Shown in pieces: positions 5,974 to 52,451 of a stretch of DNA of 64,000 nt. Source of the DNA: Streptomyces viridochromogenes DSM 40736 (GTDB lineage: Bacteria; Actinomycetota; Actinomycetes; Streptomycetales; Streptomycetaceae); contig NZ_GG657757.1 of the NCBI RefSeq assembly GCF_000158955.1, positions 1 to 64,000 of the forward strand. Direction: 5' to 3'. Made by a program: the position numbers and the translations under genes. The stretch's first letter is position 1. Each line of letters starts with the position of its first letter. Under the pieces are notes generated by a model. That model saw only the letters and a list, made by a program, of their open reading frames with translations, did no database searches and was not told the DNA's origin.

Positions 5974-6750
5974 TCAGCCCCTCCAACTCGCATCGCCCAC
6001 GGCGCTGTCGGCCCAGTCCGAGATGGAGGCGTCCAAGTCGCGCTGGTGGTGCTTGCCGAGCTTCGCGTACAGCGCGTCGAACACGTCGCTGTCCATGTCT
6101 TCCCGGTGCTCGGCCAGCCAGTTGCCCAGCTCGTACTGCTCACCGTCGTCCAAGTCCCCGCTCATCAGCGCCAGCTCTGGAGTCCACAGCCCCGAGCACC
6201 GCGCCACCTGTACGACGTCCATGGCCAGCTGGAGCGGCGACGGCTTCCACCCGGACGCCTCCTGGACGAAGCCGCCGACGTCCTCCCGGTCCTCGCGCCA
6301 CGCCCGGTCCAGCACGGGCAGCCGCAGCCAGTTCAGGCGCTCCCCGGAAACGGCGTGCGTCGGGAACGAGTAGTGGGCCAGGAAGTCGTCCTGCTCCTCG
6401 TCCACCTGGGACTGGCGCGGCAGATGACGCGGGTCGCGGGTGTAGGGCGCCCCCTCGAACACCCCACTGTCGGGCGTCGGCGAGACCACCCGCCAGGAGA
6501 TGTGCACCTCGCCCGGCCGGAACGCCTCCGGCCACCGCTCGTGATAGTGGTTGGCGTCCTTTGCCCAGTAGCGCCACAGGACGTCCGCCGGCTGCCCTTC
6601 CGCCGAGGGGTCCTCACAGATCGGCCCGGCGCGCCCGACGAGCCAGGACAGCGCCAGCTCCTCGGTGTGGACGTACCCGTTCTTGGATCGGAAGATCCAC
6701 CGCGTGCCTGGAGGGTACGGCTGCACGCCCGCAGTAGTCGTGTTGCTCAT
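5974..6750 (-). CDS. conserved hypothetical protein
   Basis: A 258-residue soluble, acidic protein starting MSNTTTAGVQPYPPGTRWIF at ATG 6750. The frame continues upstream but that part is low-complexity. It has many Trp/Asp residues and no membrane segment or signal peptide. The first third (RWIFRSKNGYVHTEELALSW) looks beta-rich, the rest helical. I do not recognise the family. Its neighbours (DUF6207 relic, hypothetical gene upstream) give no functional hint. Confidence 0.7.
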   Translation of the reverse strand: MSNTTTAGVQPYPPGTRWIFRSKNGYVHTEELALSWLVGRAGPICEDPSAEGQPADVLWRYWAKDANHYHERWPEAFRPGEVHISWRVVSPTPDSGVFEGAPYTRDPRHLPRQSQVDEEQDDFLAHYSFPTHAVSGERLNWLRLPVLDRAWREDREDVGGFVQEASGWKPSPLQLAMDVVQVARCSGLWTPELALMSGDLDDGEQYELGNWLAEHREDMDSDVFDALYAKLGKHHQRDLDASISDWADSAVGDASWRG

Positions 6751-29844: not shown

Positions 29845-30321
29845 ATGACGACGACAACCGTACGAACGCCTCGCGCCGTTCCCCTCAGTGGCGAACTAAT
29901 GACCGAAACCATCAAGGTCGCTCACCCCGGTGGTGATGAAGCTCCCCGGGCCGAAGACGCGCGCCGAGTAGGAACATTGCGTCGGATCACTGCCGCTCGG
30001 CTCCGCCACTGCGGGCTTCAGGCGCTGATCGAAGACGTGGGAACCATTGTGTCGGAGCTCCTCACCAACGCCTTACTGCACAGCGGCGCCACGAAAATCA
30101 CTCTGCACCTCGGCGTCAGAGACGGCTTCCTGCGCGTCGCCGTCATCGACGGCATGTCCGGTCACGCCACGCTCAAGCACGCCGACGACGACAACACATC
30201 AAGGCGCGGGCTGGCATTCGTCGAGGCCTTGGCCAAGGAGCATCACGGCACCTGGGGCACTAGCGACGACGGCACCCTGACGTGGTGCAACCTCGCCGTG
30301 CCAACGGAGGAGCGGTCGTGA
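29845..30321 (+). CDS. RsbW-like ATP-binding protein (anti-sigma factor type)
   Basis: About 158 residues with a GHKL/HATPase fold: AARLRHCGLQALIEDVGTIV, then SELLTNALLHSG (N-box), LRVAVIDGM (G1-like) and RRGLAFVEALAKEHHG (G2). The ATG at 29845 has GAGGA upstream; a GTG directly before it is also possible. Codon 77 is TTA (30073-30075), suggesting bldA control. In Streptomyces such small ATPases accompany XRE/TPR regulators and DUF6415 genes in natural-product loci. Its stop overlaps the next ATG (TGATG). Confidence 0.85.
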   Translation: MTTTTVRTPRAVPLSGELMTETIKVAHPGGDEAPRAEDARRVGTLRRITAARLRHCGLQALIEDVGTIVSELLTNALLHSGATKITLHLGVRDGFLRVAVIDGMSGHATLKHADDDNTSRRGLAFVEALAKEHHGTWGTSDDGTLTWCNLAVPTEERS

Positions 30322-30752
30322 TGCCACCAGCCACGATCCGCCGCTGGACGGGGCCCACCCCGCAGAAGGCAGAACCACCCCTTGACGTTGACGCCCTGTT
30401 GGATGTGATTGCGAAGTTCCGACGGTGGACCCCGTTCGACGGTGAGGCCTTACTCGACGATGTCTGCGCCGTCCCGGACGACGTCGTACCGAGTGCGGAC
30501 GAATTCGAGGGGCACGCTGAGCGGCTCGGCGGTCACTTGATGCGGCTCGTGGACATTGCATTGGCCGCCGAGGCGCATCAGATGGACGACGAAGCTACTC
30601 GACTGATCCGACAGGCGCGAGAGGTGCGTGCGCAGAGGTCATGCCATGCGAGCTCCGGGCCGCCTTAGGGCACCTGCGGCGGATGGCCTGGTCCGTCAAC
30701 GAGCCACTGGAGCTCCTGGTGGCGGGTCCAGTGCCTGAAGGAGGAGCTGTGA
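30321..30752 (+). pseudogene. DUF6415 family protein, two frameshifts
   Basis: Starts MPPATIRRWTGPTPQKAEPP, then LDVIAKFRRWTPFDGEALLD, as in DUF6415 'natural product biosynthesis' proteins. After QAREVR the expected ALGHLRRMAWSVNE continues in another frame (shift near 30630-30638). A second shift near 30722-30730 (an extra G in GGG) restores the first frame for the ending QCLKEEL with TGA at 30750-30752, which overlaps the next GTG. The uncorrected frame stops at 30668. Codon 44 is TTA (30450-30452). Function of the family is unknown. Confidence 0.75.
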
Positions 30753-31471
30753 CCGGTCTACTGCTCCCCCCAACCTGCACCGTCCCTACGAGAGAGAAGA
30801 ACCGCTCCGTGCGCACCTCGACCGACCCCGCACTGGTCCCTTTCATCATCCAGCGGAAGGGAGAGGAAGCCGCACCAGACAACCTCGTCATCCACGTGCA
30901 CCCCTCCGGGCCGCGGTTGTACTACCTCGACGAGGACCCTAGGGACCGGCCCCTTCGAGGCCAGCTGTGGGCACGGTGTGGGTTCAATCCCGTGGACGAG
31001 CGGCAGATGCCGACCGGGGAGCCGCAGTGGAAGTTTATGCACCCCTACCGGCAAATGATCACGATGCGGACCCTTCATTGCCAGGTGTGTGCGAGGCCCG
31101 CCCGGACGCCGCTGGGCTTCGTCTTCCTCGCCGGTCCAAAAGACGAGGACCCCACACAGCCGACGATCTACACCAAACAGCCTCCGGTGTGCCGCAGGCA
31201 CATTCGTGCCGTCGCGGAGCTGTGCCCGCACATGGAGAAGAACCCGATGGTCTTCTTGGCCCGGAGCGCACCCATGTACGGAGTCCACGGCACCCTTTAC
31301 GGGCTTAACGCACGAAGCGAAGTGCACGTCGTCGCAAGCCCCGACTACCCACTGCCCTTCGGTCATCCGAACATCCCCACCTTTCTCGCCTCGCAGCTCA
31401 TCCGCCGGCTCAGTTCCTTCCGCATCGTCGATATAGAGGAACTTCTGCACGAGCTGGCGTTGGTCGCGTAG
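30749..31471 (+). CDS. hypothetical protein with zinc-ribbon-like cysteines
   Basis: A 240-residue protein from GTG 30749 with a strong AAGGAGGAG ribosome-binding site. It contains HCQVCARPARTPLG and, 40 residues later, PPVCRRHI, a likely C-x2-C...C-x2-H zinc site, flanked by aromatic-rich strands (LYYLDEDPRDRP, WKFMHPYRQM). It follows ATPase and DUF6415 genes in the same operon and precedes the lanthipeptide precursor. No known enzyme family is recognised; it may be a regulator or maturation accessory. Confidence 0.7.
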   Translation: MTGLLLPPTCTVPTREKNRSVRTSTDPALVPFIIQRKGEEAAPDNLVIHVHPSGPRLYYLDEDPRDRPLRGQLWARCGFNPVDERQMPTGEPQWKFMHPYRQMITMRTLHCQVCARPARTPLGFVFLAGPKDEDPTQPTIYTKQPPVCRRHIRAVAELCPHMEKNPMVFLARSAPMYGVHGTLYGLNARSEVHVVASPDYPLPFGHPNIPTFLASQLIRRLSSFRIVDIEELLHELALVA

Positions 31472-31500
31472 ACCCTGCCCGGTGACCCGGCCAGCACCAT

Positions 31501-31550
31501 GCCCCCGTTGTGAGCTGCACTCACCCATCACGACAGGTCACAACGGGGGC
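31501..31550 (+). terminator. inverted repeat before the lanthipeptide precursor
   Basis: GCCCCCGTTGTGA (31501-31513) and its exact complement (31538-31550) flank a 24-base loop. It lies between the zinc-ribbon gene and the precursor gene. It may partially terminate the upstream message, attenuate, or bind a regulator; a ribosome-binding site (AAGGAG) for the precursor follows at about 31594. Confidence 0.5.
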
Positions 31551-31606
31551 CCTGCGGACTCCCCCGCCCCGTCCCACGGGCGGTCGACTCCTCAAGGAGC
31601 ACAACT

Positions 31607-31775
31607 ATGCCTACTGGCACCATGCCGCTCGCGCCGAAGACAGCCGAGGTTCCGATCACCGACGAGTGGGAGCTCGACACCACCATCACCTACACACCGA
31701 CGCCTATCGTCCAGGCCTGCGACACCAACGACGGGGTGCAAGCCGAGCTGCGCCTCCTCCTGCACATCGAGCTGA
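31607..31775 (+). pseudogene. FxLD-like class I lanthipeptide precursor, core out of frame by one G
   Basis: From ATG 31607 the leader reads MPTGTMPLAPKTAEVPITDE then WELDTTITYTPTPIVQACDT. WELD stands where FxLD-type leaders have FxLD. At NDG the frame goes on to VQAELRLLL with no Cys. In the neighbouring frame the same DNA encodes NDG-CKPSCASSCTSS and a TGA at 31773-31775, a Cys/Ser/Thr-rich core typical of this family. One extra G in the run 31733-31736 (GGGG for GGG) explains the shift; the restored product has 55 residues. It precedes a LanB gene fragment. It is either a real lesion, a sequencing error, or unusually a programmed shift. Confidence 0.7.
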
Positions 31776-31844
31776 CCTCAGTTGCCGGCGCGGGCGGGCG
31801 AGCCAACACCCGCCCGCGCCGGCCACACGGCAGAAGGGACACCC

Positions 31845-32405
31845 GTGACTCGACCGATCTACCGACGACGTGGGGACGCGCTCGTCCTGCGCGCCGCTGC
31901 TATGCCCATGGATGCCCTCCCCGCTGACTGGCCGACCACAAGCTCCGTCGAGGCTTGCCGCCAATGGCTCGGTCGCGTGTGGGCCGAGGAAACCTTCGTC
32001 ACGCCGCTATGCGCTGCATCCCCGGGACTGACCTGGTATGTCGAGCGGATCCTCAGAGGCGATGACGTCCAACCAAAGAGGATTCGTAAGGTCACTAATT
32101 CCGTCGCCGCATACCTGCTGCGGGCTACCGGGCGCTCAACACCGTTCGGCCTGTTCGCAGGGGTTGCCCTAGCCGGCGTCGGACCCACCGCAGCCACGCT
32201 CGGTACCGCCCATCAGCCTGTTGCGCGCCCCGACACGCTGTGGGTCGACCACGTACGCAGAGACCTGCAAGTCCGTGCCGACGTACTGCTGCGCCAGAGC
32301 CTCCACCACACGGGCGTCGTGCGCCGGGAAAACCGGCTCTGCCCGCCCAGCGTTCTTCACGGCGATTCCCCACACACGGTGACCACCGAAGAGCGGTCCG
32401 TGTGA
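31845..32405 (+). pseudogene. lantibiotic dehydratase (LanB) N-terminal fragment
   Basis: From GTG 31845 with GAAGGG upstream: VTRPIYRRRGDALVLRAAAM, then SVEACRQWLGRVWAEETFVT, then VTNSVAAYLLRATGRSTPFG with the LanB signature STPFGLFAGVAL. LanB enzymes glutamylate and eliminate Ser/Thr of lanthipeptide precursors. Full-length LanB is around 800-1000 residues; this ends after 186, followed within 18 bases by the converging carboxylase gene. The C-terminal elimination domain and a LanC cyclase are missing, so the locus is cut off. Confidence 0.8.
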
Positions 32406-32422
32406 CGGGCGTCTGCGGGCCT

Positions 32423-35400
32423 TCACCAGGTGTCGACGCAGCGCCGCGAGCCGCGCTGTCCGGGTTCAGGGTAAGGATCGGGGTCATGCAGCAGCGTGCT
32501 GATCCAGCGTCGGGACTCGGCCGGGTCAATGACGTCGTCGATCTCGAAGACCGATGCGACGTTGAGGGCCTTGCCGTGCTCATAGGCGGCCGCGACCCTG
32601 CGGGCGAACTCCCGCTCACGCTCGTCCGCGTCCTCGATGGCCGCCAGCTCCCGGCGGTAGCCCAGCCGCACCGCGCCCTCGATACCCATCGGCCCGAACT
32701 CGCCCGTGGGCCACGCCACCGTGAACCGGGGGATGCGGAAGCCGCCGCCGGCCATGGCCTGTGCGCCCAGCCCGTAGCCCTTGCGCAGCACGATCACGCC
32801 GAAGGGCACCGTGAGGGCCGAGGCGTGTACGAACATGCGGCTGACATGCCGGACGGTCGCGGTCTTCTCCGCCTCGGGGCCGACCATGAACCCGGGTGTG
32901 TCGCACAGGGAGACCAACGGCAGTCCGAACGCGTCGCACAGTTGCAGGAAGCGGCTCGCCTTGTCGGCCGCGTCGGAGTCGATGGCGCCGCCCAGATGCC
33001 GTGGATCGTTGGCGAGGATGCCGCACGGGCGGCCCTCCACCCGGGCCAGAGCGGTGATGACACCGCGTCCGAAGTGCGGTCGCAGCTCCAGGACGGACCC
33101 GGCGTCGGCGAGAGTGGCGATGACCGCACGCACGTCGTACGCCCGCCGCCGGTTCTCGGGAATGAGGTGACGCAGTCGGCGCTGGTCGGGGCACTCCCAT
33201 TCCGGCACCGGGCCCTGGAAGTACGACAGATACGTGCGCGCCAGCCGGACGGCGTCCGCGTCGTCCTCGGCCTCGAGGTCGATGACGCCGTTCGCCCGCT
33301 GGACCTCGGCCGGCCCGATGTCCTCCGGGGCGAAGCTGCCCAGTCCCCCGCCCTCGATCATCGCCGGGCCGCCCATGCCGATGGTGGCCTCGGGCGTGGC
33401 GATGATGACGTCGCAGCAGCCGAGCAGCGCGGCGTTGCCGGCGAAGCAGCGCCCCGAGCCGATGCCGACCAGCGGCACCTTCCCGCTCAGGGACGCGAAC
33501 AGCGCGAAGGCCATGCAGTCCAGGCCGGAGACCACCGTGCCGTCCACATCGCCCGGCCGGCCTCCGCCCCCTTCGGCGAACAGGACGACGGGCAGGTGCG
33601 CCTGTTCGGCCAGCGCGAAGAGCCGGTCCTTCTTGCGGTGGCCCGTCATGCCCTGGGTGCCGGCCATCACGCTGTAGTCGTACGACATCGCCACCACGCG
33701 GGCGGACCGGGGGCCGAACCGGTCGGCCCCCACCGTGCCCACGCCGCCGACCAGACCGTCGGCGGGGGTGCGGCGGATGAGGTCGTCCAGGGAGCGGCGG
33801 CTGCGCTGGGCGGCGATGGCCAGGCCGCCGTACTCGACGAAACTGCCCGGGTCACACAGGTCGGCGATGTTCTCGCGGGCGGTGCGCCGCCCCTCGGCGT
33901 GCCGCCGGGCGACCATCTCGGGGCGGCTGGCGTCGTCGCCGAACCGCTTGCGCGCCCGCACCTCCTCCAGATCGGCGCGTGGGGTGTCCGGGTCCGGCCG
34001 CTCCTCGGGACGCGGCTCATCGTCCGCCGCGCCGGTGGCCTCCATCACCACCAGCGGCTGACCGTGCTCGGTCAGTTCACCCAGCTCCGCCCGTACGGCC
34101 AGGACCACGCCGTCGCCCGGCGCCTGGAGCAGGTGCTCCATCTTCATGGACTCCAGGACCACCAGGGTGCTTCCGGCCCGTACGCGCTCGCCTTCGGTGA
34201 CGGCGACGTCGACGACGGTGGCCGTCATGGGGGCGGTGACGGTGAGCGTGCCCTGCGGCTCGAAAGCGTCGGGGGTCCCCGCGTCCTTCTCCGGGTCTGT
34301 CTCCTGCGGGACCAGTGTGGGCAGGAGTTCGTCGAGGAGCGCCGTGTGCAGCCGCCCCGCGACCACCTCGGGTGCCTCCAACAGCCGCCGCAGCACCTCG
34401 GCATTGGTGGCGACTCCCTCGATCCTCAGCTCCGCCAGGGCGCGGCGGGCGCGCGCGAGCGTGTCGGGCAGGCTGCCGCAGCCGTCGTGGGCGACGAGCT
34501 TGGCCAGCAGCGAGTCGAAGCGCGGGCTGACCCGGCCGCCGGGGAACGCGGCGGTGTCGACGCGCACACCCGGCCCGGCCGGTGGCCAGAACACGTCCAG
34601 CGTGCCGGCGGAGGGCAGCACCGTCCCGTCGGGGCGGACCGCCTCGGCGTTGACCCGCACCTGTACCGCGCAGCCGCGGGGAGCGGGAGCCTGCCCCGCC
34701 CCGATGCGGTCGAGGCTCTCGCCGGAGGCCACCCGCAGCTGGGCCTTGACCAGGTCGACGCCGGTGACCTCCTCGGTGATGGTGTGTTCGACCTGGATGC
34801 GCGGGTTGGCCTCGAGGAAGTAGAAGCCCGGGGAGCCATCGCCGGTGTCCACGAGGAACTCGAACGTGCCCAGGCCTGTATAGGCGACCTCCCGGGCCAT
34901 GCGCAGCGCCGCATCGTGCAGCCCGGCCCGCACCGCCTCGTCGAGGCCGGGCGCCGGCGCGATCTCCACGATCTTCTGCCGGTGCCGCTGCAGGCTGCAG
35001 TCGCGGTCGCCGTAGCCGACGACGGCGCCCGTGCCGTCGCCGAGCACCTGCACCTCGACATGGCGGGCACGCCGCAGCAACTGCTCGACGTAGACCGCGC
35101 CGTCGCCGAAGGCGTGCGAGGCCTCGGAACGGCAGCGCCGGACGGCCTCCTCCAACTGCCCTGCCTCGTACACCGTGCGCATGCCGCGCCCGCCGCCGCC
35201 GGCGATCGCCTTGACCATCACCGCGGCACCCTCGCCGAGGCCGGCCATGAACGCACGCGCCTCCTCGGCACCGGTGTCGCCGTACGTCGCCGGCAGCACC
35301 GGCACGCCGAGGCGCGTGGCGAGTTCACGGGCCGTGGTCTTGTCGCCGAGCGTCCGCAGCACCTCGGGGCGCGGACCGACCCAGGTGAGTCCGGCGTCGG

Positions 35401-35692
35401 TGCACCGCTGTGCGAAGTCGGCGTTCTCGGCCAGCAGCCCATAGCCGGGGTGGACCGCGTCGCAGCCCGTGCGCGCCGCCGCGTCGACCAGGGCCGCCGC
35501 GTCCAGGAAGGCCCCCGGCCCCTCGCCGTCGAGCACAAGGACCTCGTCCGCCATGCGGGCATGCAGCGCGTCCGCCTCGTCACGGGAGCGCAGCGCCACC
35601 GTCAGCAGGTCCAGTTCGCGGGCGGCGCGGATCACCCGTACCGCGATCTCGCCGCGGTTGGCGACCAGAAGCTTGGCCAGCCCCATCGTCAC
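32423..35692 (-). CDS. single-chain biotin-dependent acyl-CoA carboxylase
   Basis: A 1089-residue fusion of three parts: biotin carboxylase (1 to about 450; AKLLVANRGEIAVRVIRAAR, ATP loop AGGGGRGM, then EANPRIQVEHTITEEVTG), biotin carrier domain (about 500-575; LESMKMEHLL with the biotinylated Lys) and carboxyltransferase (about 620-1085; AEGGGGRPGDVDG, SLCDTPGFMVGPEAEKTA, AMAGGG). It fixes bicarbonate onto an acyl-CoA. Streptomyces normally use separate AccA and AccB chains, so this all-in-one form suggests a special role. It ends coupled to the upstream acyl-CoA ligase (ATGA, 35689-35692), so the ligase product is the likely substrate source. Confidence 0.93.
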   Translation of the reverse strand: MTMGLAKLLVANRGEIAVRVIRAARELDLLTVALRSRDEADALHARMADEVLVLDGEGPGAFLDAAALVDAAARTGCDAVHPGYGLLAENADFAQRCTDAGLTWVGPRPEVLRTLGDKTTARELATRLGVPVLPATYGDTGAEEARAFMAGLGEGAAVMVKAIAGGGGRGMRTVYEAGQLEEAVRRCRSEASHAFGDGAVYVEQLLRRARHVEVQVLGDGTGAVVGYGDRDCSLQRHRQKIVEIAPAPGLDEAVRAGLHDAALRMAREVAYTGLGTFEFLVDTGDGSPGFYFLEANPRIQVEHTITEEVTGVDLVKAQLRVASGESLDRIGAGQAPAPRGCAVQVRVNAEAVRPDGTVLPSAGTLDVFWPPAGPGVRVDTAAFPGGRVSPRFDSLLAKLVAHDGCGSLPDTLARARRALAELRIEGVATNAEVLRRLLEAPEVVAGRLHTALLDELLPTLVPQETDPEKDAGTPDAFEPQGTLTVTAPMTATVVDVAVTEGERVRAGSTLVVLESMKMEHLLQAPGDGVVLAVRAELGELTEHGQPLVVMEATGAADDEPRPEERPDPDTPRADLEEVRARKRFGDDASRPEMVARRHAEGRRTARENIADLCDPGSFVEYGGLAIAAQRSRRSLDDLIRRTPADGLVGGVGTVGADRFGPRSARVVAMSYDYSVMAGTQGMTGHRKKDRLFALAEQAHLPVVLFAEGGGGRPGDVDGTVVSGLDCMAFALFASLSGKVPLVGIGSGRCFAGNAALLGCCDVIIATPEATIGMGGPAMIEGGGLGSFAPEDIGPAEVQRANGVIDLEAEDDADAVRLARTYLSYFQGPVPEWECPDQRRLRHLIPENRRRAYDVRAVIATLADAGSVLELRPHFGRGVITALARVEGRPCGILANDPRHLGGAIDSDAADKASRFLQLCDAFGLPLVSLCDTPGFMVGPEAEKTATVRHVSRMFVHASALTVPFGVIVLRKGYGLGAQAMAGGGFRIPRFTVAWPTGEFGPMGIEGAVRLGYRRELAAIEDADEREREFARRVAAAYEHGKALNVASVFEIDDVIDPAESRRWISTLLHDPDPYPEPGQRGSRRCVDTW

Positions 35693-37473
35693 CGGTTCTT
35701 TCCGTAAGCGCCGTCAGCGGCAGGGGACACGGCGATGCGCGCGGCCTGTTCCAGCAGCTCGCCCTTCTTCACCTTGCCGGTCGTGGTCATGGGCAGGACG
35801 TCGACGCACCTCACCACGGGCACCTTGTACGGGGCCATGTTCGCCCGCGCCCACGCGCGCACGCCCTCGACGTCGAGCGCGGCACCGGGGCGGGGCTGGA
35901 CGAACGCCATTGGCACCTGGCCCCGATGGGGATCGTCCATCGGTACCACCGCCGCGGTCAGCACATCCGGGTGCCGGGCCAGCAGCGCCTCCAGTTCCGA
36001 CGGGAAGACGCTCATACCCGAGACCTTGATCATCTCCTTGTTGCGGCCGAGGTAGTGCAGGCACCCGTCCTCGTCGATCATTCCGATGTCGCCGGTGTGC
36101 AGCCAGCCGTCGCGCAGGACTTTGCCGGTGGCCTCCGGCTGCCGCCAGTATCCGGTGAGCAGGGAGGGTGAGCGTACGAGGATCTCGCCGCGCTCGCCCA
36201 GCGGCAGCGGCTCGGCGCTCTCCCCGTCGGCCACCATGAACTCGGTTCCCGGCATGGGCAGTCCGCAGAAGACCGGCTCGGTCAGCAGGTCGTGGTCCCC
36301 GTCCTGGAACCCGGTGGTGAAGGAGTCCGCGGTGTGTGTCTCGGTCATGCCGTACGCCGCCTCCTGCAGCACGCTGTGCTCGCCGGCCAGGGAGCTCCAC
36401 CGGGACCGGATCGCCGGCGTCAGCTTGCGCACGAACGACATGGCCCGCGGCTGCGCCAGACTGGACAGGTCGGTGCCGGGCAGGCCGGGGTGCTCCATCA
36501 GCTCGACGTAGTTGTCGACCGTGCCCAGCATCAGCGTCACGTGGTACCGCTCGATCGCCTGCAGCACGGCCTCGGGGTCCCACCGGGTGAGCAGCACGAC
36601 GCCGCTGCCGGTGAGCAGCGGCAGCAGGATGCCGAAGTCCTCGCCGGCGATCCAGAAGACCGGCACGTAGATCAGCAGCACGTCGGGGTTGTCGCCGGAG
36701 AGGTCCATGCCGCCGGTGGCCGCCGCCGTCGCCGCGGTGTAGAGCATGTGCCGTTGGGAGTGTTCGCACCCCTTGGGCAGGCCGGTGGTCCCGCCGGTGT
36801 AGTTCAGCGCGGCGAGCGCGTCCAGGTCGGCCGGCTGGTCCTGGCCGCGGGCGCCGCCGACGGCCCGCTCCCACTCGCTGCCGGCCGGGTCGGCATCCGC
36901 CAGGCCGGGCGGCAGCGGCAGCACCGGGTCGGAGGGGAGCATGTCGGCGAGGCTGGTGACGAGTACGCTCCGTACGGCGGTGTCGGGCCGCACCGTCTCG
37001 ACCAGCGGTCGCAGGGTGTCAAGAGTGATCAGGACTTCCACGCCGGCGTCGGTCAGCTCGTGCCGCAGCTCGTGCTCCCGGAACATCGGGTTCACCGGGA
37101 CGTGCACGGCTCCGGCGCGCAGGATGCCGAGCATGGCGACGACGAACTGCGGGCAGTTGGGCAGGAACACCCCGACGCGGTCTCCGGGGCGTACGCCGCC
37201 GCGCTGCAGCCAGCCGCACAGCCGCGCCGTCAGGTCCTCCAGCGCCGCGTAGGTGATCTGTTCGCCGTAGAAGGTGATCGCGACGCGGTCGGGATGGCGC
37301 CGGGCCCAGTGGCGCAGGTGGTCGGTGAGCGGCCGCTGCCCGAGCGGGTACACCACCTCCCTCGGCACCGAGGCCGGCCATACGCGTTGCTGGCGGGCTC
37401 GTACATCGGCCAAGTACTCTTCCACGCGCGCGTTGTCCGCCACGACGGCCTCCACCTGTCTCTGGCATACCAA
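35689..37473 (-). CDS. AMP-dependent acyl-CoA synthetase
   Basis: A class I adenylate-forming enzyme of about 585-594 residues. Motifs: P-loop NYTGGTTGLPKGCE, AYGMTETHT, YWRQPEATGKVLRDGWLHTG with D-I-G, and C-terminal TTTGKVKKGEL with the catalytic Lys. It activates a carboxylic acid to the acyl-adenylate and CoA thioester. The stop overlaps the carboxylase start, so both proteins are probably made in fixed ratio and act in sequence. The TTG at 37473 is doubtful; GTG codons at 37455 or 37443 (the latter with GGTGGAGG upstream) are likely starts. Substrate unknown. Confidence 0.9.
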   Translation of the reverse strand: MVCQRQVEAVVADNARVEEYLADVRARQQRVWPASVPREVVYPLGQRPLTDHLRHWARRHPDRVAITFYGEQITYAALEDLTARLCGWLQRGGVRPGDRVGVFLPNCPQFVVAMLGILRAGAVHVPVNPMFREHELRHELTDAGVEVLITLDTLRPLVETVRPDTAVRSVLVTSLADMLPSDPVLPLPPGLADADPAGSEWERAVGGARGQDQPADLDALAALNYTGGTTGLPKGCEHSQRHMLYTAATAAATGGMDLSGDNPDVLLIYVPVFWIAGEDFGILLPLLTGSGVVLLTRWDPEAVLQAIERYHVTLMLGTVDNYVELMEHPGLPGTDLSSLAQPRAMSFVRKLTPAIRSRWSSLAGEHSVLQEAAYGMTETHTADSFTTGFQDGDHDLLTEPVFCGLPMPGTEFMVADGESAEPLPLGERGEILVRSPSLLTGYWRQPEATGKVLRDGWLHTGDIGMIDEDGCLHYLGRNKEMIKVSGMSVFPSELEALLARHPDVLTAAVVPMDDPHRGQVPMAFVQPRPGAALDVEGVRAWARANMAPYKVPVVRCVDVLPMTTTGKVKKGELLEQAARIAVSPAADGAYGKNR

Positions 37474-37640
37474 CCGGTCGGCATGTGCGCATCACGGTAA
37501 GGGAGCCCGCGGGCCGGGACAAGGGTGCGGACACGGTGGGGCAGGCCCGGGGCTTCGGTCTCGTCGAGCTGCGCGAGGCCGGGCCGGTGACCGTCGGCGA
37601 GTGGCCGACGGTAGGTCTCCCTCCAGCGGTCGTGCCCGGT

Positions 37641-52130: not shown

Positions 52131-52300
52131 TGGACAGGCTGCACTCGAACCGAGGCTCGATAATTGCCACACCGGCATGCTCCTGTCACCGAAGCATGCG
52201 CCGGGGGTCGAGAGGGAGACGGGCGGAGTGCCGGTCGCGACACCGGCAGCTGATATCGCCTGTTCGTCGCCGTGGGTGAGGACTATGATCACCAACAAGG

Positions 52301-52375
52301 CGGGGTCGTAGCACAGAGGTAGTGCGCCGCGACATCATCTCGGAGGACGTCGGTTCGAATCCGACCGCCCCGCCC
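52301..52375 (+). tRNA. tRNA-like gene, possibly a pseudo-tRNA
   Basis: Folds as a cloverleaf: D-stem GCAC/GTGC with loop AGAGGTA, anticodon stem CCGCG/CTCGG (one mismatch), variable AGGAC, T-stem GTCGG/CCGAC with loop TTCGAAT, acceptor CGGGG(T)CG with CGCCCCG, where one T is bulged. The anticodon loop is ACATCAT; position 33 is C, not the usual U, and the anticodon position reads ATC. CCA is not encoded. TATGAT at 52284-52289 is a good -10. The bulge and C33 suggest a divergent or decayed tRNA, possibly brought by a plasmid or phage. Confidence 0.6.
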
Positions 52376-52451
52376 CTAGTCACCCTGAAGCCGCAGGTCA
52401 ACGGCCGCCGGTAGTGACGACCATCGGGCTTCGGCTCAGCACCATGGGGTG

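Follow-up and report, generated by a model that had tools for sequence, protein, structure and literature searches.

A decayed FxLD-type lanthipeptide locus in a Streptomyces chromosome arm and a conserved hairpin upstream of its precursor gene

In Streptomyces viridochromogenes DSM 40736 the leader of an FxLD-type lanthipeptide precursor and the cysteine-rich core expected to follow it lie in different reading frames. Is this a dead cluster, a misread living one, a gene read by frameshifting, or another protein altogether? We examined a window of 64,000 bases (bases 1–64000 of a single 8.65-Mb contig, in a genome rated 99.99% complete). Very probably it holds what remains of a class I lanthipeptide cluster of FxLD type, likely productless and likely left by an illegitimate rejoining, with a likely leader RNA that is itself decaying (Table 1). 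As a pseudogene remnant the cluster is ordinary and of a kind already known. New here are the frameshift in its DUF6415 gene, the junction of LanB with a scrap of a helicase gene, a copy of the frameshifted precursor ORF on a second contig, and a conserved hairpin.

Table 1. Features of the remnant and its junction, in window coordinates
Feature	Position	Strand	Evidence or remark
ATP-binding (histidine-kinase-like ATPase) gene, open	29845..30321	+	PF13581, 2e-08
DUF6415 gene, frameshifted	30321..30752	+	PF19979, 6.8e-08; compared with L005, L149, L113
Cys-pair protein of the cluster, open	30749..31471	+	no Pfam or NCBIfam family; start codon by eye
Conserved structured leader: 22-pair hairpin, then short hairpin CCGCCC/GGGCGG	31494..31583	+	model R1, 72.6 bits
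FxLD-type precursor, leader part with WELD, first frame	31607..31735	+	ORF continues to 31927, unlike any relative
G run, point where the frame leaves the relatives' frame	31733..31736	+	comparison with relatives
Precursor core CKPSCASSCTSS and stop, next frame	31737..31775	+	translation
LanB fragment, 186 aa	31845..32405	+	relatives' LanB homology to about residue 148 (32288); remainder is junction sequence
40-bp helicase-gene scrap, antisense	32286..32325	-	100% identical in G026 (L110); 95% at 8653019-8653058
66 unassigned bases between scrap and chromosome backbone	32326..32391		no second copy found when sought in own genome
Unrelated chromosome backbone	32392..37551		93.7% identical to G001; carboxyltransferase gene from 32423 on - strand

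The split precursor gene and its intact relatives

The ATG at 31607 opens a leader with DEWELD that reads through to ...ACDTNDG and on, in the same frame, into VQAELRLLL... and a stop at 31927; the next frame reads ...GCKPSCASSCTSS and closes with TGA at 31773–31775. A preliminary description of this DNA had noted the WELD leader and, in the overlapping frame, CKPSCASSCTSS with its stop, and both are there in translation. It had also called the leader frame Cys-free; that frame in fact runs for 106 codons and has three Cys, two of them 3′ of the G run. The break falls at the conserved DG|C, where the window DNA is GACGGGGTGC, while nine relatives (L005–L009, L149–L152) cross the site in frame with GACGGN followed by TGC or TGT, in agreement with the frame break that had been proposed at the G run. 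The window has TNDG and C in two successive frames, dividing TxDGC, the core motif of the lanthimiditides. Its FxLD-like leader and Cys/Ser/Thr core do not share a frame; in the relatives they share a single one.

The precursor of Streptomyces griseomycini (L005), upstream of LanB, is MASVAAPLATETVEVPLSDEWELTTTITRAPTPIVEACGTNDGCAASCASSCASS. It is encoded in one frame, and its 55 residues equal the summed length of the window's two pieces, bearing out the 55-residue precursor that had been restored on paper. With it as query, 5.8 billion proteins yielded 23 homologues (counting the query's own record), and all 23 carry a DGC-xx(x)-CAS(S/A)C core in frame, in a search that an in-frame query biases towards in-frame proteins. 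TxDGC is present in 22 of them, the remaining one (P0012) having SSDGC, and P0010 carries CKPSCASSC, the same stretch as in the window core. VQAELRLLL was looked for as the conserved end; judged from these sequences, the conserved precursor end is the Cys core instead. The two frames of the window jointly match the relatives' in-frame precursors, so the split is not chance. The window ORF has no match to the FxLD precursor model TIGR04363, whose curated cut-off is 30 bits; the intact relatives P0003, P0007, P0010 and L149 score 23.4–27.7 bits and L152 scores 31.3.

With the LanB fragment as query, a scan of genome contigs confirmed at least 474 loci, of which the best 80 were kept. A regular expression picked out a candidate precursor in 70 of these 80, that of L072 being spurious by eye, and none in the other 10. 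The closest LanBs among the matches listed were those of S. griseomycini (76% identity), L006 (62%) and L007–L009 (49–53%). An intact parent cluster had been sought in Streptomyces, and such clusters were found in S. griseomycini and on plasmids. Synteny between the window and the S. griseomycini locus spans 30375–32298; farther along, that locus encodes a 996-aa LanB (with both Pfam domains; thiopep_ocin), a LanC 74% identical to that of plasmid cluster L149, and a TIGR04364 FxLD methyltransferase (383 bits). Searching plasmids by tblastn with its precursor gave four records, all from Streptomyces and three of them typed conjugative. The plasmid clusters, as annotated, have a divergently oriented regulator upstream (in L149 assigned by NCBIfam to the NsdA family), ATP-binding, DUF6415 and hypothetical or DUF6302 proteins, then fxlA, LanB, LanC and fxlM. 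The order of the three upstream genes varies among them; that of L149 (ATP-binding, DUF6415, hypothetical, fxlA, LanB, LanC, fxlM) is the window order. In five further genomes with hairpin and in-frame precursor (G059, G117, G152, G228, G356) a TIGR04364 match over the cut-off lies 4–6 kb from the precursor.

One other locus, L091 (G295:C50:27388-27650), has the first residues of its precursor and the core in different frames, on a contig with no TIGR04364 match, and is likely a second orphan precursor. A stretch resembling a tRNA 3′ end follows it by eye; ARAGORN calls no tRNA there.

The neighbouring genes and the end of LanB

The decay extends beyond the precursor. Nine L149 proteins compared with the 64-kb window by tblastn matched five genes: the ATP-binding gene, DUF6415 with matches in two frames, the gene for the Cys-pair protein, fxlA in its leader part, and LanB over residues 2–137. 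LanC, fxlM, the NsdA-family regulator and the gene beyond it had no match in that search. The ATP-binding gene, whose family assignment as an ATPase was upheld by Pfam, is 55% identical over 116 aa to its L149 counterpart, and the Cys-pair protein 59% identical over 224 aa to the L149 gene at 5992–6708. The latter had been described as a zinc-ribbon protein; its Cys pairs are visible by eye, and the family assignment found no match in Pfam or NCBIfam. NCBIfam likewise gave no match for the window precursor or the LanB fragment. The DUF6415 gene had been assigned to the right family, and its frameshift overlooked: relative to L005, L149 and L113 it has two extra bases at about 30624–30625 and one at about 30724, and its starting frame meets a stop at 30666–30668, between the indels.

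The LanB fragment starts at a GTG and contains STPFGLFAG, as had been seen; it matches Lant_dehydr_N (PF04738, E 1.3e-23) over profile positions 5–120 of 649. Of some 980 LanB residues about 148 have a homologous counterpart here. A full LanB (PF04738 plus PF14028) is not in the window; the LanBs of L149 and L005 carry both domains. The N-terminus is 76% identical to that of S. griseomycini and 68% to that of plasmid L149 as far as 32288, the homology ending at 32284–32305 depending on the relative and the program. Further pieces of this LanB were sought in its own genome, where the search gave only another LanB, at 5.11 Mb, 38% identical to that of S. griseomycini. A TIGR04364 methyltransferase over the cut-off was likewise found in this genome only at 5.11 Mb, with none beside the window locus. 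The dN/dS of the fragment is 0.16–0.29 against L005, L006 and L113, and 0.11–0.28 among those intact copies; no decay is visible by this measure, so either the loss is recent or the test is too weak. Short LanB proteins (219–267 aa) occur in other Streptomyces records (P0028, P0029, P0030), and truncation of LanB may be recurrent among these bacteria.

Past the end of LanB, the junction can be followed one base at a time. The helicase gene of G026 (L110) that matches the scrap has DEAD, Helicase_C and HA domains, and the 95% copy of the scrap is at the far end of the window's own chromosome. At the seam, CTGC is common by eye to the L113 LanB and the helicase gene. In the window's genome, the G001 sequence lying left of the breakpoint is matched only distantly, at 72–76%, and for that reason the ancestral order of the arm was not recovered. 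Excerpts of PMC8627663 describe repair of double-strand breaks in Streptomyces arms by end joining. The junction itself looks like a break rejoined by end joining with filler DNA. Elsewhere in the window, ARAGORN places a tRNA-Asp, anticodon ATC, at 52300–52376. This anticodon is unusual for bacteria.

The extra G might nonetheless be a sequencing error, the precursor then being alive and processed in trans by another FxLD system that this genome carries near 5.11 Mb (G000:C1:5104000-5120000, L140). Miscalled G runs do happen in high-GC assemblies. The second system has a LanB, a LanC-like gene and, as its fxlM-like gene, a TIGR04364 methyltransferase (450 bits); its FDLD precursor is in frame and is separated from the LanB by a run of N. 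Against this, the low similarity of its LanB to that of S. griseomycini speaks against processing in trans, and the same frameshifted ORF, identical over the 101 aa from its second Met, is found on another contig of 1,042 bases. That contig is likely independent of the 8.65-Mb one, and the repetition makes an assembly error less likely. The DUF6415 gene adds two further indels, whereas in about 5 kb of adjoining coding sequence (32423–37473) the only indels relative to G001 are of 12, 3, 15 and 9 bases, all in frame, a control that is 6% divergent and so not matched to the roughly 30% of the cluster's relatives. With three frameshifting indels within about 1.1 kb and a truncated LanB next to them, a dying cluster is a better explanation than errors in base calling, and we regard the error as quite improbable.

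A programmed +1 ribosomal frameshift joining leader and core would explain why the core still reads perfectly in the +1 frame. We reject it as hardly credible: the relatives' precursors that were compared need no shift, the DUF6415 gene is broken too, and with LanB cut and LanC and fxlM absent from the window there is little to maintain such a shift. That the 106-aa ORF, open over 31607–31927, encodes a separate new protein has next to no probability, as of 11 candidates from 5.8 billion proteins the identical copy alone reached E 0.01 and its tail overlaps the start of LanB in another frame.

The locus is then best read as a decayed FxLD-type lanthipeptide cluster, as had been proposed, with common descent from intact clusters supported by sequence and synteny. 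With two genes out of frame, one cut short and two missing, it likely makes nothing. A double-strand break in the chromosome arm would have been rejoined illegitimately, fusing LanB to the helicase scrap and to unrelated chromosome, and the frameshifts would have come with or after the loss of function. It offers a clean snapshot of the death of a peptide cluster in a Streptomyces chromosome arm, in a group whose members are also carried on plasmids.

A conserved hairpin upstream of the precursor gene

A hairpin is found directly 5′ of the precursor in 14 loci: the window, L005, L006, L008, L085, L086, L089, L090, L091 and L149–L153. Comparison of upstream regions showed its shape kept while its letters change in L005, L006, L008 and further genome loci. 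In an alignment of eight sequences (A3), 91.5% of cells in the 22-pair stem are paired, compared with 79.3% in shuffles, none of 500 of which reached 91.5%, and 11 of the 22 pairs have changes on both sides among the eight loci. Sliding the stem along gave 35–47% paired, a control that leans towards the structure because the structure was derived from the same sequences; the better test is given by six loci outside the training of model R1 (G295, G653 and all four plasmid loci). Of these, L149–L152 and L091 form 18–21 of the 22 pairs as standard pairs, and G653 has two non-standard pairs marked. Against the RNA reading, folding gave weak z-scores (-1.4 to -1.7) in three of the seven loci folded. 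In the window, five of the 22 pairs are non-standard, the most among the 13 sense rows counted, and three of these are in the outer five pairs.

At E 0.01, R1 matched seven of 392 Streptomyces genomes, the window's own among them, and two of 394 genomes drawn from the class, namely its own and G653, with none in the other 136 genera sampled. All sense matches in these eight genomes are directly upstream of a W-x-L precursor; G356 has an additional antisense echo. The hairpin is not universal upstream of W-x-L precursors: seven of 15 genomes with a precursor match have it and eight have no match, and L007 (WDLD) and L009 (WQFD) gave none at E 0.1. No F-x-L locus with the hairpin was found among the 45 sources scanned. 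Rfam (4227 families) gave no match at the window hairpin at E 10, nor in five loci at E 1, and our literature searches, in the excerpts they returned, brought up no described RNA leader of lanthipeptide precursors.

We considered a DNA operator as the reason for the hairpin. The arms change together and stay complementary, and in the 12 other sense leaders, aligned in A5 by fitting to the structure, G-U cells outnumber A-C cells 20 to 8, which favours RNA; in the window hairpin the counts are 0 and 3. The hairpin is likely a cis-acting RNA, with a predicted role in controlling precursor expression in intact clusters. We also think there is a good chance that FxLD clusters of the W-x-L branch have a cis-regulatory RNA not described before, formed by a long covarying hairpin and a short one close upstream of the ribosome-binding site, that would gate expression of the precursor and that is decaying with the cluster in the window. 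If so, it is a candidate switch for FxLD clusters, whose products are mostly unknown. R1 would also give a mining probe that needs no match to the short precursor; it was by this RNA model alone that the G653 locus turned up. This leader is the interesting part of the locus and raises its interest moderately, the remnant itself being ordinary.

Comparison with known systems

The segment W-x-L-D corresponds to the FxLD recognition sequence described in excerpts of PMC12710340, and in the intact relatives the modifying enzymes would bind this part of the precursor leader. LanB and LanC are predicted from their families to install (methyl)lanthionine rings in the Cys-rich core, and fxlM to methylate the Asp of TxDGC, giving an aspartimide. 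For OlvA/OlvSA and the lanthimiditides, a PIMT-like enzyme acting on this Asp is described in excerpts of PMC13001092; by analogy, rings and aspartimide are predicted for the intact relatives of this branch. OlvA/OlvSA of Streptomyces olivaceus, as excerpted from PMC13001092 and PMC7268733, is likewise a class I lanthipeptide system in which a neighbouring O-methyltransferase acts on a conserved Asp. It differs in being characterised; our literature searches, in the excerpts they returned, gave no characterised member of the W-x-L branch described here.

Nearer are the FxLD clusters with a PIMT-like methyltransferase (fxlM, TIGR04364; the lanthimiditides), which share with the window the W-x-L leader and have a TxDG|C core that in the window is split between two frames; there, by contrast, the precursor and DUF6415 genes both have frameshifts, LanB is truncated, and neither LanC nor fxlM is present. 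The plasmid-borne FxLD cluster of Streptomyces hirsutus (NZ_CP109265.1, L149) has the same gene order, a W-x-L precursor and the leader hairpin. It is intact and on a plasmid typed conjugative, with a divergent NsdA-family regulator, whereas the window locus has no such regulator and is part of a chromosome arm.
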